Assembly: GCA_029554345.1 (NCBI GenBank)
Contig: JAKPJF010000061.1
Span: forward strand, 1-51,166
Source: Spirochaetota bacterium
GTDB taxonomy: Bacteria; Spirochaetota; UBA4802; JAFGJZ01
Direction: 5' to 3'
Length of the DNA stretch: 51,166 bases
Position 1 is the first letter of the stretch, and each line of letters begins with the position of its first letter. A program made the position numbers and the translations under genes. Below are positions 13,861 through 21,143 of this stretch, piece after piece. The notes under the pieces were generated by a model. The model was given only the letters and a program-made list of their open reading frames with translations, searched no databases and was not told the DNA's origin.

Positions 13861-14964
13861 ATGCGCTTTATCAATCTTTTAATTATTTTCGTTTTTCTGT
13901 TTTGTTCATGCCGGGAGGAGAAAATAGCCTTTGTCGGCACTCTATCAGGCACCGGGAGTAAAACTGGATTATATGCAAAAAACGGTCTGGAAATTGCTGT
14001 CGATGAAATAAACACTTCCGGAGGAATCGGCGGCAGCAAAATCGTCCTAGATATTTTCGATGATAAAAATAATCCGTCAATCGCCGAAGGCATAGATTAC
14101 GGAATTGCGATAAAAAACTATAAAATAATAATAGGTCATAACACCAGCGAAATGTCAAAAGCGGGTCTCAAAGCAATAGGAAACAAACAAATTCTTATGA
14201 TAAGTCCATATTCGGCTTCGGACAGCCTCTCCGGGCTAAATGATAATTTTATCAGAATCATCCCGGCAAGCCGCAGTCAGGCGGAATTCACGGCAAGATT
14301 TGCCAAGCGTTCCGGTTATAATAGAATATATGTTATATATGATAAAACCAATGCCGCTTATTCTTCCACTTTTATTAAATATTTTTCTGATGAGACAGGA
14401 GCATCTTCGATCATTCATAAAACCTTTTTTGAATCTGCTGACGAAAACACTCTTACGGAGATTCTTTACCGAAGCTCAATCATTAATCCCGATTCTTTTC
14501 TTATCCTGACATCAGGACAAACTCTTGCCGTTATTTGCCAGTTGCTTAGAAAAAACGGATTTCGCCAGCAAATATTCACCTCAGGAGCAGCAGCCAACGA
14601 AGAGTTAATTGAAAACGCTGGAAAACATAGTGAGGGTATCATATTCTCACATTTTATAAACTTTAACATTGATTCACAGCAAAGCAATGTTTTCAAAGAG
14701 AAATATTTATCAAAATTCGGAGAAGAACCTTCTCTGGTCTCACTTCTTGCGTATGACTCGATAATGATTTTAAAACAAAGTATCGAGGAAAATGAACTTA
14801 GTATTGAAGATGCTTCGGTCGATGAAATAAAAGAATCAATTATCAGAAAAAAAAATTTTTCTCTTTTAACGGGATCATTTTCAATAAACTTAAACGGAGA
14901 CGCTGAAAGAAAAACTTATCTTTATAGAATCTCCAAGGGGAAATATGTTCTTATCGAGAATTAA
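13861..14964 (+). CDS. LivJ-type periplasmic binding lipoprotein (first of pair)
   Basis: A 367-aa type I periplasmic binding protein (branched-chain amino acid/amide family, Peripla_BP_6). It has a short signal peptide with a loose lipobox ending LFCSC, then the family start IAFVGTLSGTGSKTG, NGLEIAVDEINTSGGIGG, and GHNTSEMSKAGLKAI at the ligand-cleft position, with a second lobe IYVIYDKTNAAYSS. No ABC permease or ATPase gene is nearby. It overlaps a paralogue by 20 bp, which overlaps a histidine kinase by 4 bp, so it probably serves as a ligand receptor for that kinase rather than for transport (inference from context). Confidence 0.85.
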   Translation: MRFINLLIIFVFLFCSCREEKIAFVGTLSGTGSKTGLYAKNGLEIAVDEINTSGGIGGSKIVLDIFDDKNNPSIAEGIDYGIAIKNYKIIIGHNTSEMSKAGLKAIGNKQILMISPYSASDSLSGLNDNFIRIIPASRSQAEFTARFAKRSGYNRIYVIYDKTNAAYSSTFIKYFSDETGASSIIHKTFFESADENTLTEILYRSSIINPDSFLILTSGQTLAVICQLLRKNGFRQQIFTSGAAANEELIENAGKHSEGIIFSHFINFNIDSQQSNVFKEKYLSKFGEEPSLVSLLAYDSIMILKQSIEENELSIEDASVDEIKESIIRKKNFSLLTGSFSINLNGDAERKTYLYRISKGKYVLIEN

Positions 14965-16063
14965 AGCAATTAAATCTTCTGCTGTCTTTATATCTTCCGT
15001 ATGCATTTTATCATGCACCAATCATGCAATCGACATTGGAGTTGCTTCAACTCTCAGCGGAAAAAATTCCGACCTCGGCATTCACTGTAAAAACGGAATA
15101 ATTCTCGCAACAGAAGAAATCAATCAATCCGGGATTCTGGGAAAAAGAAAAATTAAACTTTATATTTCAGATGATAAAAATTCGCCGGAGGAAGCAGCTG
15201 CGATAAATTCTGATTTCATCGGAAAAGGAGTAAATCTGATTATAGGACACAGTACAAGCGAAATGTCAAAAGCAGGTCTTTCATCGATAAATGGAAAAGA
15301 TTTTCTTATGATATCACCGTCTTCAAGTTCAGATTATTTTACCGACAAGGATGATAATTTTTTAAGAGTCTGCTCCACTACCAAAAGTGAAGCTATTGCC
15401 GTAGCAGATAAAATTTCATCATTAGATCTCAAGAAGATTGTTATCATATATGATTCATTAAACAGAACCTATTGCGAATCATATATAGGCTTTTTTACAG
15501 AATACACCGGCTCAAAAAGCATAACACCTTTTCTCGTTAAAGAATATTCTTTAACTGACAACAAATCAATTGAAAATGCCGTAAATGATATAATCAGAAT
15601 CAATCCGGATACTGTTCTCGCTCTTTTTTCAGCTCATGATCTCACAAAATTTGCACAGAAAATACGAAGTAAAAAAAGCAGCATTCCCATCTTCACCGGA
15701 GGCTGGGCAATGACATCATACCTGACTTCATACGGCGGAAAATCCGTCGAAGGAATTAAAGCTGTATTATTCTACGACACAGAAAACAAACATCAATCGC
15801 TCCTAAATTTCAGAAAAAAATATAAAGAAAGATTCGGCACTGAAGCAACTTTTTCTTCTATATATGGATACGATTGTGTTTATCTTTTATTTCAGTCTTT
15901 CAGAAAAAACTATTTATCTCCTGAAGAAATAAAGAAAAATACCATCGAAACAAGAAGATTCGATTCTCCTGCAGGCGAATATCTTATAAACCGCTATGGA
16001 GATGCACAACGTTCTGCGAATCTTGTTGAAATAAAAAACGGACAGATTATTAAAAGCAAATGA
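14945..16063 (+). CDS. LivJ-type periplasmic binding lipoprotein (second of pair)
   Basis: A 372-aa paralogue of the preceding protein. It shares the order of motifs: STLSGKNSDLG, NGIILATEEINQSGILG, GHSTSEMSKAGL, DNFLRVCSTTKSEA, IVIIYDSLNRTYCES and FTGGWAMTSYL. A lipobox ILSC follows a hydrophobic signal (about 10-24). ATG 14945 has AAGGGG upstream, inside the end of the first gene. It ends in an ATGA overlap with the kinase. Sequence divergence between the two copies suggests different ligands or a heteromeric sensor. Confidence 0.85.
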   Translation: MFLSRIKAIKSSAVFISSVCILSCTNHAIDIGVASTLSGKNSDLGIHCKNGIILATEEINQSGILGKRKIKLYISDDKNSPEEAAAINSDFIGKGVNLIIGHSTSEMSKAGLSSINGKDFLMISPSSSSDYFTDKDDNFLRVCSTTKSEAIAVADKISSLDLKKIVIIYDSLNRTYCESYIGFFTEYTGSKSITPFLVKEYSLTDNKSIENAVNDIIRINPDTVLALFSAHDLTKFAQKIRSKKSSIPIFTGGWAMTSYLTSYGGKSVEGIKAVLFYDTENKHQSLLNFRKKYKERFGTEATFSSIYGYDCVYLLFQSFRKNYLSPEEIKKNTIETRRFDSPAGEYLINRYGDAQRSANLVEIKNGQIIKSK

Positions 16064-18120
16064 AAACAAAAAGCAAAAAATCAATTTATAAACTCTCCAT
16101 AGCTTTTACAATTATTATCTTTTCATTATTGTTTCTATTTCTGTTTATTTCTATAAATCATTTCTCTGACAATCTCATCAGAACAAACGACCTTAATTCC
16201 CTGACTTTAGCCGGAAACATGTCCAATGAGTACGAACGCTTTTTCAAACAAACAGTAAATCAGCTGAAAATCATCAATGATAACATATCCAGGCAAACTA
16301 TACATAACAGCAAGATAAACGACTATTTGAGAAATATTGCAGCAGTAAACAATTCTTTTGAAGAAATTTTCATACTTGATAATAATGGAACAATTATTAA
16401 TCATTCATATGATACCAATTTTTACGATTCCTTTGACTACTCATCACAGAAATATTTCATTAAAAGCAAAGAAACCGGAAAACCCTATTTTTCCGATTCT
16501 TTTGTTTCTTTCAAATCAAACAACATCTGTTTCACTATATCTGTTCCCGGAAACAATTATACAGTTTGTGCAATAATCAATATTGAAACCCTCACTTCAT
16601 CAATTGATAAAGAATTTGCAAACACCGGAATCTGGACGACAATAACAGATAGAAATGGAAACATAATCTATCATCCAATTAAGGATTATTCAGAACAAAG
16701 GCGGAATATTAAGAACGAAACACATATTTTTGAGGCTTTATCAGGAAAAATCGGAAGTTTTGATTTCTATACCGATGATAATAAAAACAGAGTAAGCGTT
16801 TATCCAGTAACTTCCCCGGAATGGACTGTTTCAATTTACAATAATTATGACAAAATCACCGCCCCCGCTAAATCGATGAAATTACTTCTTATTTTTGCAT
16901 TCTCTCTTGCTGCGCTTTTTCTTTTTCTAACAATATACTATTTCAAAATCAGATTCATTTTACCTCTAAACAGAATCGCTTTGCAGATGTCATCAATATC
17001 TGACGGAAATTACGGAATAAAGCTTCTGCATTCTGATTATTCTGAGATCAACGGATTCTATGAAATTTTCACCCAAATGGTTCTTTCTGTTTCATCAAGA
17101 GAAAATGCCATTTTAAAATCAGAGAACCTCCTTGACAAAATATTCAAAACAATGCGTGACGCAATTACAGTCTGCGATAAAAACGGAAATATAACTTTTA
17201 TGAATCCCACTGCAAAAAAATATTCAGGATTATCTGTAGGAGACAACATTTTCAAATCAAAAAATCCATCTATCATATATTCCGACTATAAGGATGAACC
17301 AATTGAAAAGAATCTTCTTCCTTTGTATGACGCTTTTAAAAGCAAAACAAACCAGACCGGAATTTACAAAATGCAGTTTGCCGACTCTGCATTCAAATGG
17401 GTTTCGGAATATGTCTATGCTTTCGAGGATGACGATCATAATTTTGACGGAATGCTTTCTTGTGCGGCAGACATTACCGAACTCAAGGTTTCGTCTCAAA
17501 AAATATCAGACACTCTAAGAGAAAAAGATATTCTTTTAAAAGAAATCCATCACAGAGTCAAAAACAATCTTCAGATCATATCATCGCTTTTATCTCTTCA
17601 GGCTAATACGATTAAAAATGCCGAGATAACTTCTATTTTATCCGAAAGCCGTAATAGAGTAAAAACCATGGCTCTTATTCATGAAAAACTGTACCAGTCA
17701 ACAGACCTGACCAGAATTGAAATCCGCTCATATCTCAAAAATCTGGTTCAGCAGATTTTTGCGGGAAGTTCTGCTGACATAAGACAAATTTCTTACGAAG
17801 TCCGCTCAGACAATGTTTTCATGTCAATCGATGACGCGGTTCCATGCGGACTTATAATAAACGAATTAGTCTCAAACTCAATTAAACACGCCTTTAACGA
17901 TGGTAGAAAGGGACGGATTATTGTAGAATTTCTACTGCTTCCTAACGGAAAAAGATCTCTTGCCGTTGCCGATGACGGCGAAGGAATTCCTCATAATTTC
18001 GATATCGATAAAACAGACAGTCTTGGAATGAAACTCGTTTCTTCTCTTTCAAAGCAAATCGGAGGAGAACCGAATATTATAAGACAGGATAACGGAACAG
18101 CAGTCATCATTATCTTTTAG
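16060..18120 (+). CDS. Cache-HAMP-PAS sensor histidine kinase (HisKA_2 type)
   Basis: A 686-aa membrane sensor kinase. Order: TM1 (about 10-30), an extracytoplasmic Cache-like domain (31-270), TM2 (about 275-297), HAMP (about 298-348), PAS (about 358-475), a HisKA_2 phosphoacceptor helix KEIHHRVKNNLQ with the probable phospho-His497, and an HATPase_c domain with N-box ELVSNSIKHAF, G1 DDGEGIP and G2 SLGMKLV. It starts in an ATGA overlap with the second binding lipoprotein, so the three genes form one unit. No response regulator follows directly; the next gene is a CBS-SpoIIE phosphatase after 132 bp. HisKA_2 kinases often act on single-domain or output regulators encoded elsewhere. Confidence 0.9.
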   Translation: MKTKSKKSIYKLSIAFTIIIFSLLFLFLFISINHFSDNLIRTNDLNSLTLAGNMSNEYERFFKQTVNQLKIINDNISRQTIHNSKINDYLRNIAAVNNSFEEIFILDNNGTIINHSYDTNFYDSFDYSSQKYFIKSKETGKPYFSDSFVSFKSNNICFTISVPGNNYTVCAIINIETLTSSIDKEFANTGIWTTITDRNGNIIYHPIKDYSEQRRNIKNETHIFEALSGKIGSFDFYTDDNKNRVSVYPVTSPEWTVSIYNNYDKITAPAKSMKLLLIFAFSLAALFLFLTIYYFKIRFILPLNRIALQMSSISDGNYGIKLLHSDYSEINGFYEIFTQMVLSVSSRENAILKSENLLDKIFKTMRDAITVCDKNGNITFMNPTAKKYSGLSVGDNIFKSKNPSIIYSDYKDEPIEKNLLPLYDAFKSKTNQTGIYKMQFADSAFKWVSEYVYAFEDDDHNFDGMLSCAADITELKVSSQKISDTLREKDILLKEIHHRVKNNLQIISSLLSLQANTIKNAEITSILSESRNRVKTMALIHEKLYQSTDLTRIEIRSYLKNLVQQIFAGSSADIRQISYEVRSDNVFMSIDDAVPCGLIINELVSNSIKHAFNDGRKGRIIVEFLLLPNGKRSLAVADDGEGIPHNFDIDKTDSLGMKLVSSLSKQIGGEPNIIRQDNGTAVIIIF

Positions 18121-18226
18121 GCTTAATATGTTATCTAAGGTATTCGTCGAACATTTCCGGCACAAAACAACTGCATAATTTATCAGAACTTTACAAAATA
18201 TTTAAATAGATTATCTATATTAATGT

Positions 18227-18253
18227 TAAACACTCCTAGCCATGGAGTGTTTA
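18227..18253 (+). promoter_or_regulatory. Hairpin sequestering the ribosome-binding site of the CBS-SpoIIE gene
   Basis: TAAACACTCC (18227-18236) and GGAGTGTTTA (18244-18253) form a perfect 10-bp stem with a 7-nt loop. The 3' arm contains the GGAG Shine-Dalgarno and the A of the start codon. The structure would hide the translation start unless melted, bound or overridden. An upstream ATG at 18223 exists but has no ribosome-binding site. Confidence 0.55.
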
Positions 18254-19473
18254 TGATGTCATTCACTGAAGAAAAAAATGAAGTGCTTTCCGGATTGAAG
18301 ACAATTATAAGGAGCTTAAAAGATAAACAACACGGAGAAATCATAGCCAAAATAGCTTCGACATATTATTATACAAAATCGGATTCAGCAGTACTTGAGA
18401 TAGCCGAAGATATGGAAAAAATCGCTGATGTTCAGGCGATAGGAATAACTGACAAATCCGGACATATAATCGGACTTATCTCGAGAAAAATACTTTTCGA
18501 TTTTCTAAGCAAGCCATTCGGCAGAGATCTTTATCACAGCAAAACTGCCGGTGAAATATGTTCAAACTGCTTTGTATATGATTATCAGAGCAACATCTAT
18601 TCTATTGCCGAAGAAATCGAAGAAAAGCATGGTCTTAAAAATGATAAATATTTTGCAATATCAAAGAAAGGCATATTTTACGGAATTTTTTCTACAAAAG
18701 ACATACTTATTTATCTTTCAGGAATTACACAGAAAGATATTCAGCTTGCGCGTAAACTTCAAAGCAACATTGTAAAAGAAGATTTGATATTCGAAAACAC
18801 ATCATTTTCAGTGTGCGCAGTTAACCGGTCTGCAAAAGGAGTCTCCGGAGATTTTTACGATGTAAGAGAATATAGAGGAGGAAGATGGCTGTTTACGCTG
18901 TGTGATGTTTCCGGAAAGGGTATTTCGGCATCCCTCGTTACTTCAGCAATCGGAGGTCTTTTCAGTGCGTATGATTTTTCATCAGGTATATGCACCTTTA
19001 TTCAAAAAATGAATTCTTTTCTTCTTTCAACTTTTGGAAACGAGAAATTTGTCACAGGAGTCTTTGCGGACCTAAATGAACAAACCGGAGAACTCACAAT
19101 CTTCGACATGGGTCATTCACTCATATATCTTTTCAGAAACGGTAGATTCTTCAGACTAACCACTTCACAAGACAACAATATTCCTTTAGGAATAGCAGAT
19201 AATGAAAACAGTATTCCTTCCGATAAAATCAAATTAGAAAAATATGATCTTTTTATGCTGGTGACAGACGGTCTTATTGAACAAGTCAATGAATCTGGAG
19301 AGCAATACGGTTCAGTAAGATTCGCGGCAAACGTCGGGAGATACGCCGAAAGAGGGATTGATACTATTAAAGATGAATTGCTCAAAGACATTTCAAGATA
19401 TAAGGGACGCCAGCCTCTTCACGATGACATGACGATGATAATTCTTTCTTTCAAAAACAATATATCCGACTGA
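18253..19473 (+). CDS. CBS-domain SpoIIE (PP2C) serine phosphatase
   Basis: A 406-aa cytosolic PP2C-type phosphatase. The N-terminal half (about 20-170) contains two CBS-like units (ADVQAIGITDKSGHIIGLIS and DKYFAISKKGIFYGIFSTKD), which in this family bind adenine nucleotides. A linker helix QLARKLQSNIV leads into a SpoIIE domain with GDFYD, DVSGKG, MGHSL, TDGLIE and HDDMT; the metal-binding Asp residues are all retained, so it should be active. ATG 18253 (or 18256) is chosen for the GGAG just upstream. The substrate is probably an anti-sigma antagonist (STAS) protein or a regulator elsewhere. Its place after the kinase unit suggests a common signalling pathway, though it seems to be a separate transcript. 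Confidence 0.88.
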   Translation: MMSFTEEKNEVLSGLKTIIRSLKDKQHGEIIAKIASTYYYTKSDSAVLEIAEDMEKIADVQAIGITDKSGHIIGLISRKILFDFLSKPFGRDLYHSKTAGEICSNCFVYDYQSNIYSIAEEIEEKHGLKNDKYFAISKKGIFYGIFSTKDILIYLSGITQKDIQLARKLQSNIVKEDLIFENTSFSVCAVNRSAKGVSGDFYDVREYRGGRWLFTLCDVSGKGISASLVTSAIGGLFSAYDFSSGICTFIQKMNSFLLSTFGNEKFVTGVFADLNEQTGELTIFDMGHSLIYLFRNGRFFRLTTSQDNNIPLGIADNENSIPSDKIKLEKYDLFMLVTDGLIEQVNESGEQYGSVRFAANVGRYAERGIDTIKDELLKDISRYKGRQPLHDDMTMIILSFKNNISD

Positions 19474-20225: not shown

Positions 20226-21143
20226 ATGAAACCTTCTAAAATTCTAATATTAAGCGAAAGCACTATCTGCTTCAGCAACATATATTCTGATTATGCTGAA
20301 ATAAAAAGGCAAATTAATCCTGGTGATTCATTTCAAAATTACATTCTAACTGCTGTTGATTTTGATTCAAAAATTGCATTAAAAGAATTTCCTTTATCAA
20401 CAGTGGCTTTTTCAGAAGAATTCACTAATGAAACTGAAGCCGAAATGAAAAGCAAATCAATTCCGTTTTATCTTAATCACAACTATCTGACAAACAATCT
20501 AGAAAAAATCATAAGAATTTTCAGCAAACTCAATACAGAAAAAAAAATAGCTGTATTCTCACCTGACAAAGAACGGAATACGATCCTAAAAGCAGTTCTT
20601 CGATTATTCAATTATGATATGATCGAAATATATAACTTCAATGATCTTTTCTCTCTGAATGACTCTGAAATATCATTTATATTTGCAGACATTTCTTCAA
20701 AATCTTTTTCATCAGAACAATATGTAAAAAAAGCTCTTTTCGGTCGTTTGAAATTTATACCGTTCATTCCTTTCTACACCGAAAACGGAATAGGAATATC
20801 AGATATAGCGTGCGGCTTAAACAAGGTAGCTCGTTTCATTTTAAGCTTTGACGAAATGATGAGTTTTATTTCTCACAATTTTTCATCACACGAAATATTC
20901 AACGAAAACAGAAAATTGAATGATTTTTTTCATTCTCATAAAAATAAAACTGTGTTCAGCCTCGATCTCAAATCTGATTATCATCAAAATTATCAAAGCA
21001 TGGTTCTGACCAGCAAGGATTTTTCAGACTCAGATGAAGGTTTAATCTCTCAGATATCTAAACTTGATGAAAGCATGACAAAACGCGAATTGGTAAAATG
21101 GTTTATCATAGATGACAATTCCGCCGGAAAATCAAAAAGCTGA
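20226..21143 (+). CDS. Unknown protein with a pseudo-receiver-like segment, 305 aa
   Basis: I do not recognise a family. The chain is soluble and rich in Ser, Phe and Asn. Residues about 104-165 (KKIAVFSPDKERNTILKAV ... FIFADIS) have the alternating strand/helix look of a response-regulator receiver, but the phosphoacceptor Asp and acidic pocket are not clear, so it would be a degenerate receiver at best. The C-terminal 80 residues are polar. ATG 20226 lacks a strong ribosome-binding site and sits 3 bp after the NUDIX stop, so coupled translation is likely. Confidence 0.6.
   Translation: MKPSKILILSESTICFSNIYSDYAEIKRQINPGDSFQNYILTAVDFDSKIALKEFPLSTVAFSEEFTNETEAEMKSKSIPFYLNHNYLTNNLEKIIRIFSKLNTEKKIAVFSPDKERNTILKAVLRLFNYDMIEIYNFNDLFSLNDSEISFIFADISSKSFSSEQYVKKALFGRLKFIPFIPFYTENGIGISDIACGLNKVARFILSFDEMMSFISHNFSSHEIFNENRKLNDFFHSHKNKTVFSLDLKSDYHQNYQSMVLTSKDFSDSDEGLISQISKLDESMTKRELVKWFIIDDNSAGKSKS

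Follow-up and report, generated by a model that had tools for sequence, protein, structure and literature searches.

Two binding lipoprotein genes overlapping a dCache histidine kinase gene: a probable sensing operon in a Spirochaetota genome

The analysed window, which is the whole 51,166-nucleotide contig JAKPJF010000061.1 (C68) of a Spirochaetota draft genome (GCA_029554345.1; 3.03 Mb, 214 contigs, 96% complete), carries two genes for substrate-binding proteins (SBPs), B1 and B2, that run directly into the gene of a sensor histidine kinase, K. We read B1-B2-K as an SBP-coupled histidine kinase, a dedicated sensing operon and not a transport operon, with a probability of about 80%. In this reading B1 and B2 would be exported and lipid-anchored, as their lipobox-like signals indicate, and would by their fold bind small molecules between two lobes. 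Gene order, co-variation and a natural fusion (PDB 5ERE) suggest a ligand-dependent contact between them and the dCache domain of K; this contact would alter HisKA_2 autophosphorylation, and phosphate would pass on to a response regulator encoded elsewhere. Since the pockets of B1 and B2 differ, the most likely roles on a presumably dimeric K would be those of two receptors with a different ligand each, or of a binding receptor beside a structural or modulating one.

Operon layout and neighbourhood

The genes and the domains of K are as follows.

13861..14964, + strand: B1, putative first Peripla_BP_6 (type I) binding lipoprotein, 367 aa (ORF, Pfam, lipobox LFCSC, AlphaFold)
14945..16063, + strand: B2, putative second Peripla_BP_6 binding lipoprotein, 372 aa (ORF, Pfam, lipobox-like CILSC)
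16060..18120, + strand: K, membrane sensor histidine kinase, TM-dCache_1-TM-PAS-HisKA_2-HATPase_c, 686 aa (ORF, Pfam, model)
16177..16836, + strand: extracytoplasmic dCache_1 sensor domain of K, where B1 and B2 are proposed to dock (Pfam, residues 40-259)
17542..17760, + strand: HisKA_2 phosphoacceptor domain of K, EIHHRVKNN (Pfam, motif)
17836..18111, + strand: HATPase_c catalytic domain of K (Pfam, residues 593-684)

The three reading frames described in an earlier note on this DNA were reproduced with their coordinates and both overlaps, 20 bp between B1 and B2 (14945-14964) and the 4 bp ATGA between B2 and K (16060-16063). A scan of both junctions gave no terminator-like site, and a promoter scan returned 31 matches against 18.6 expected, spread over both strands. 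There is no response regulator gene inside the operon. The genes around it encode DUF389, RsgA, SpoIIE phosphatase, NUDIX and MCP proteins (Pfam), and the claim that no Liv-type permease or ATPase is near agrees with the Pfam matches of the window's neighbouring genes. The left-hand DUF389 gene has no conserved informative neighbour.

The SpoIIE phosphatase gene (18223-19473) was considered as the output partner of K and rejected, as a gap of 102 bp separates it from K and its orthologue in G003, a family-level relative, occurs without the SBP/kinase module. No SpoIIE-like gene beside a kinase was scored among the family loci described below. The phosphatase is 91% identical in the congener G001 and 38% in G003; its N-terminal region, which has no Pfam match, we take to be CBS-like. 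The product of 20226-21143 in the window, 305 aa long, scores above cut-off for no Pfam or NCBIfam family, and in G001 an ORF of equal length comes after the SpoIIE and NUDIX genes.

Fold, lipid anchor and binding pocket of B1 and B2

B1 and B2 both match Peripla_BP_6 (Pfam; E = 1.1e-29 and 1.7e-31, respectively) and are 37% identical over an alignment length of 357 aa, in line with the paralogous pair first proposed. The AlphaFold model of B1 is intact and two-lobed with a pLDDT of 93, and its best fold matches are LivK TM1135 (3td9) and LivJ (4gnr). The claim that both are lipoproteins fits B1, whose LFCSC passes the strict lipobox pattern; the CILSC of B2 fails it by one residue. A lipobox-like motif was found in 39 of 53 family members.

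The pocket was compared with that of E. coli LivJ at positions which we take, from the LivJ structure, to be its pocket residues. S79 is kept in all 53 family members, B1 and B2 included, and the Y150 position holds Y in 36 and F in 15 of the 53. The position of Y202 is occupied by a small residue in 53/53 (S in B1 and B2), and that of E226 by G in B1 and B2 and by an acidic residue in only 15/53. With A in B1 and S in B2 for T102, S79 is the only one of the four amino-acid pocket residues S79, T102, Y202 and E226 that the two proteins retain. The glutamate of LivJ binds the amino group of the ligand. Because it is absent here, the label of branched-chain amino acid, which the earlier note had used for these lipoproteins, fits the fold alone. 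The substitutions make B1 and B2 both poor candidates for binding these amino acids, and judged from the pocket residues a ligand of another kind is probable.

By alignment, the pocket of B1 is remodelled beyond that of B2. The tryptophan adjoining the E226 site (W254, B2 numbering), which 53 of 55 family members have, is replaced by A in B1. LivJ position 100, which is T in 50/53, is Y in B1 and S in B2. It is probable from these differences that B1 and B2 sense different things.

The kinase

K matches HisKA_2 (1.6e-28), dCache_1 (3.2e-21), HATPase_c (2.6e-07) and PAS_8 (6.3e-06) in Pfam, and as a HisKA_2 kinase it scores 99 bits for HisKA_2 against a cut-off of 22.3 and 31.5 for HATPase_c against 26.4. 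The Cache, PAS and HisKA_2 parts of the architecture given in the earlier note are thereby recovered; its HAMP has no Pfam match in K, although the model shows both of the linker helices expected there. HAMP was matched by Pfam in 23 of 46 homologous partners. Among solved structures the dCache domain comes closest to sporulation kinase D and to further dCache domains.

The congener G001 retains the kinase at the same place, as 114 C-terminal codons at a contig edge, the B1/B2 region being unassembled. Over these codons identity is 90% in DNA and 100% in protein with a dN/dS of about 0.006, and the tail of K is under strong purifying selection.

Conservation of the SBP-dCache layout

B1 and B2 were aligned with three relatives linked to kinases, and 84,980 species genomes were scanned with this alignment; neighbouring genes played no part in finding the loci. 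The scan gave 51 loci in Thermodesulfobacteriota, Nitrospirota, Spirochaetota, Myxococcota, Bacillota, Pseudomonadota and Auribacterota. After addition of loci from 296 Spirochaetota genomes and from 395 genomes of the phylum of locus L065 there were 83 non-redundant SBPs of at least 300 bits. A dCache transducer lies directly 3′ of the SBP in 69 of the 74 loci with readable downstream sequence, most stop/start gaps being between -38 and +21 bp. The remaining five are L125, in which a fused double SBP precedes a HisKA_2 kinase, and L074, L083, L134 and L160, which have no dCache partner. The search for the same gene order in related genomes, which the earlier note had proposed, has in this way strongly favoured its idea of a dedicated sensing module without a transporter. 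An SBP gene adjoining or overlapping a membrane sensor kinase gene and conserved across genomes is one mark of an SBP-activated three-component system, and that arrangement is found here.

In nine genomes inspected closely a clean gap separates family members (>420 bits) from other SBPs (<221 bits), and the Spirochaetota scores grade more smoothly. In the tree the B1/B2 clade stands apart from transporter SBPs. No homologue of B2 is detectable in the family-level relatives G002 and G003, so the module is patchy at the level of the taxonomic family. Pfam on 46 partners gave dCache_1 in 45, HATPase in 40, HisKA in 33, HisKA_2 in 3, REC in 26, GGDEF in 4 and HD in 3; the Clostridium locus L070 has EAL with GGDEF by motif annotation. 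The sensor dCache is constant and the output domains are swapped. No description of the SBP-dCache family or of separate paired receptors was found in the open-access papers searched, and the family is apparently both widespread and undescribed.

A second, separate SBP clade with the motif SHxS[TNS]CA lies directly 5′ of sensor kinases at L056, L057, L059, L060, L061 and L063, loci from the same taxonomic order as the window. It is a distinct sensory family that shares this layout.

Two receptors for one kinase

Paired SBPs precede one transducer in 5 of the 69 loci: the window, L073 and L082 (two Desulfobacterium MAGs of one lineage), L095 of a Halobacteroidaceae MAG, where the pair precedes a GGDEF-HD protein, and L146 (G319). 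At L125:3625-7313 (- strand) of the spirochaete G093, two SBP domains are contained in one 749-aa chain directly 5′ of the HisKA_2 kinase. Paired receptors are present in at least three phyla, and another genome of the Desulfosediminicola phylum is among those that have them. The layout, called unusual in the earlier note, is rare and recurrent and not unique, as shown by pairs in unrelated lineages together with the fused double, and on this distribution it appears as a minority state that has evolved repeatedly. B1 and B2 group together in the tree at 95 SH-aLRT, both on long branches, and when either is left out the remaining one is still nearest L070 and L065. This placement fits an old duplication, and the pair is probably the product of a duplication inside the sensory family.

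Within the sensing reading, B2 alone may work, with B1 a decaying or purely structural paralogue. This is possible but less likely than not; the two non-equivalent flytrap domains of BvgS would be comparable. The loss of W254 and the Y at position 100 in B1 point to it, as does the minority of loci with two SBPs per kinase. B1 nevertheless retains S79, Y150, the invariant N173, the GHxTSxMS signature, an intact frame, its lipobox and a confident two-lobed model, and the recurrence of pairs, both across unrelated lineages and in covalently joined form, speaks against it too.

If both receptors do act in the sensing operon, it is possible that they integrate two ligands, as first suggested. In a more specific proposal, B1 and B2 would assemble into a heteromeric two-ligand receptor on a single dimeric dCache kinase, a bacterial AND or ratio sensor made from separate lipoproteins; this is tentative and on balance doubtful. 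If true, such a sensor would be the dissociable counterpart to tandem-flytrap kinases and class C GPCR heterodimers, and would have evolved several times in a large SBP-dCache sensory family. The paired and fused versions allow one to ask how two receptors share one kinase.

Outside the family, at L126:4420-8550 (+ strand) of G070, two SBPs are followed by a three-TM membrane SpoIIE-type phosphatase, a gene order which suggests SBP control of a PP2C output.

Co-variation of SBP and dCache and a natural fusion

Pairwise distances of SBP and dCache correlate over 41 pairs with r = 0.62 (Mantel p = 0.0005), as against r = 0.18 for dCache and the HATPase of the same chain. When the third party is controlled for, the partial correlations are 0.61 for SBP-dCache and 0.01 for dCache-HATPase. 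The contrast is still seen when close pairs are removed, when only one kinase family is used, under a jackknife and at equal column numbers. Plain identities give about 0.7 for SBP-dCache and about 0.4 for dCache and the kinase domain. We read this as SBP and dCache being an evolving unit, with part of the correlation accounted for by shared operon inheritance, which the HATPase control removes in part only.

PDB 5ERE (Dret_0059 of Desulfohalobium retbaense) surfaced in the fold search of K. Profiles place an SBP at residues 32-320 (E 6e-15) and a dCache at 328-497 (E 2e-7) in its single chain. The SBP is of the same type and the order of domains is the order of genes here; the differences are the covalent fusion, the single SBP domain and a more distant SBP (58 bits).

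The co-variation of SBP and dCache despite swapped outputs speaks against a stand-alone K, whose dCache binds its own ligand while B1 and B2 scavenge or deliver a compound, or serve a distant transporter, without touching K. We consider this unlikely. The R-x-R-P-W-Y of the PctA amino-acid region is replaced by S-x-Q-x-F-F in the family dCache consensus (alignment), and no Liv-type ABC system was detected in the genome. Direct ligand binding is, on the other side, usual for dCache domains. Residues 322-562 of 5ERE are listed as a dCache with cytosine (PMC8694187), and direct sensing by the dCache is therefore possible. Of 11 characterised SBP-kinase couples, 10 are encoded side by side, and some neighbouring SBP and kinase genes do not interact (PMC11113362), for which reason adjacency alone can mislead.

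No Liv-type importer detected in the genome or beside the genes in relatives

B1 and B2 are the only proteins above the Peripla_BP_6 cut-off in the 96%-complete genome. A third, weak match is a Peripla_BP_4 sugar-type protein inside an ABC operon, and the only Liv-type permease domains of the genome (BPD_transp_2) are confined to this operon and to another on contig C44, both with a Peripla_BP_4 SBP. Ordinary Liv operons of relatives (L048, L050, L051, L053 and L058) have SBPs outside the B1/B2 clade. The Liv permeases beside these genes in relatives, which the earlier note had set against its own reading, were looked for and not found; a permease-like gene lies within 6 kb in only 1 of the 83 family members (L071), which is also directly 5′ of a dCache protein. 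As for HAAT/Liv importer SBPs, the Peripla_BP_6 fold is there and LivHM/LivGF partners are not, neither here nor in the family. A further explanation, that B1 and B2 serve an ABC importer and that the assembly lacks its remaining genes, would be allowed by a draft of this fragmentation and completeness. It is highly improbable and was rejected given the ties of the permeases to Peripla_BP_4 SBPs, the more than 80 homologues elsewhere that are likewise outside transporter operons, and a family without the LivJ pattern of E226 and Y202.

On contig C44 of the same genome, G000 (L145:2145-8304, - strand), the genes of a Peripla_BP_4 SBP, an ABC ATPase and a permease come before that of a dCache chemoreceptor, all in one orientation.

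Comparison with known systems

Kinases driven by SBPs are well established as a kind, although only about ten have been characterised (PMC9602780), and paired separate receptors are a rare version of it. The nearest worked-out analogue of B1-B2-K is CuaD-CuaS-CuaR of Ruminiclostridium cellulolyticum, in which the SBP binds the kinase and raises its sensitivity, and is separate from the transporter's own SBP (PMC10384115). This lipid-anchored SBP is encoded directly 5′ of a membrane histidine kinase, as the putative lipoprotein B2 is of K. CuaDSR differs in having a sugar SBP, one receptor, a response regulator in the operon and a matching ABC importer nearby.

In LuxP-LuxQ of Vibrio a type I binding protein, the sugar-type SBP LuxP, acts on the two-PAS/Cache periplasmic domain of the kinase. 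B1 and B2 are instead Peripla_BP_6 proteins and two for one kinase where LuxQ has a single receptor; the sensor of K is nearest sporulation kinase D and dCache structures, with LuxQ absent among its best 50 fold matches. LuxP-LuxQ is among the systems cited in PMC11113362. The BvgS family has tandem Venus flytraps on one kinase (PMC4352136), in which two binding modules feed one kinase, as is proposed for K. Both flytraps are however part of the kinase chain, whereas B1, B2 and K are separate ORFs and B1 and B2 are proposed to act through the dCache. With LivJ and LivK, B1 and B2 share the Peripla_BP_6 fold and differ in lacking LivHMGF. Proteins of the B1/B2 type are mislabelled when they are annotated as 'branched-chain amino acid ABC transporter substrate-binding protein'. 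Telling the orphan SBPs that signal from those that transport is an annotation problem, for which the family gives a set recognisable by sequence across several phyla.

Peripla_BP_6 domains were also encountered in proteins of ~1,140 aa in the spirochaetes G116 (L139:3534-6980, - strand) and G072 (L140:3312-6722, - strand), together with an MscS channel and a cyclic-nucleotide-binding domain, a composition that looks like a small-molecule-gated MscS channel.
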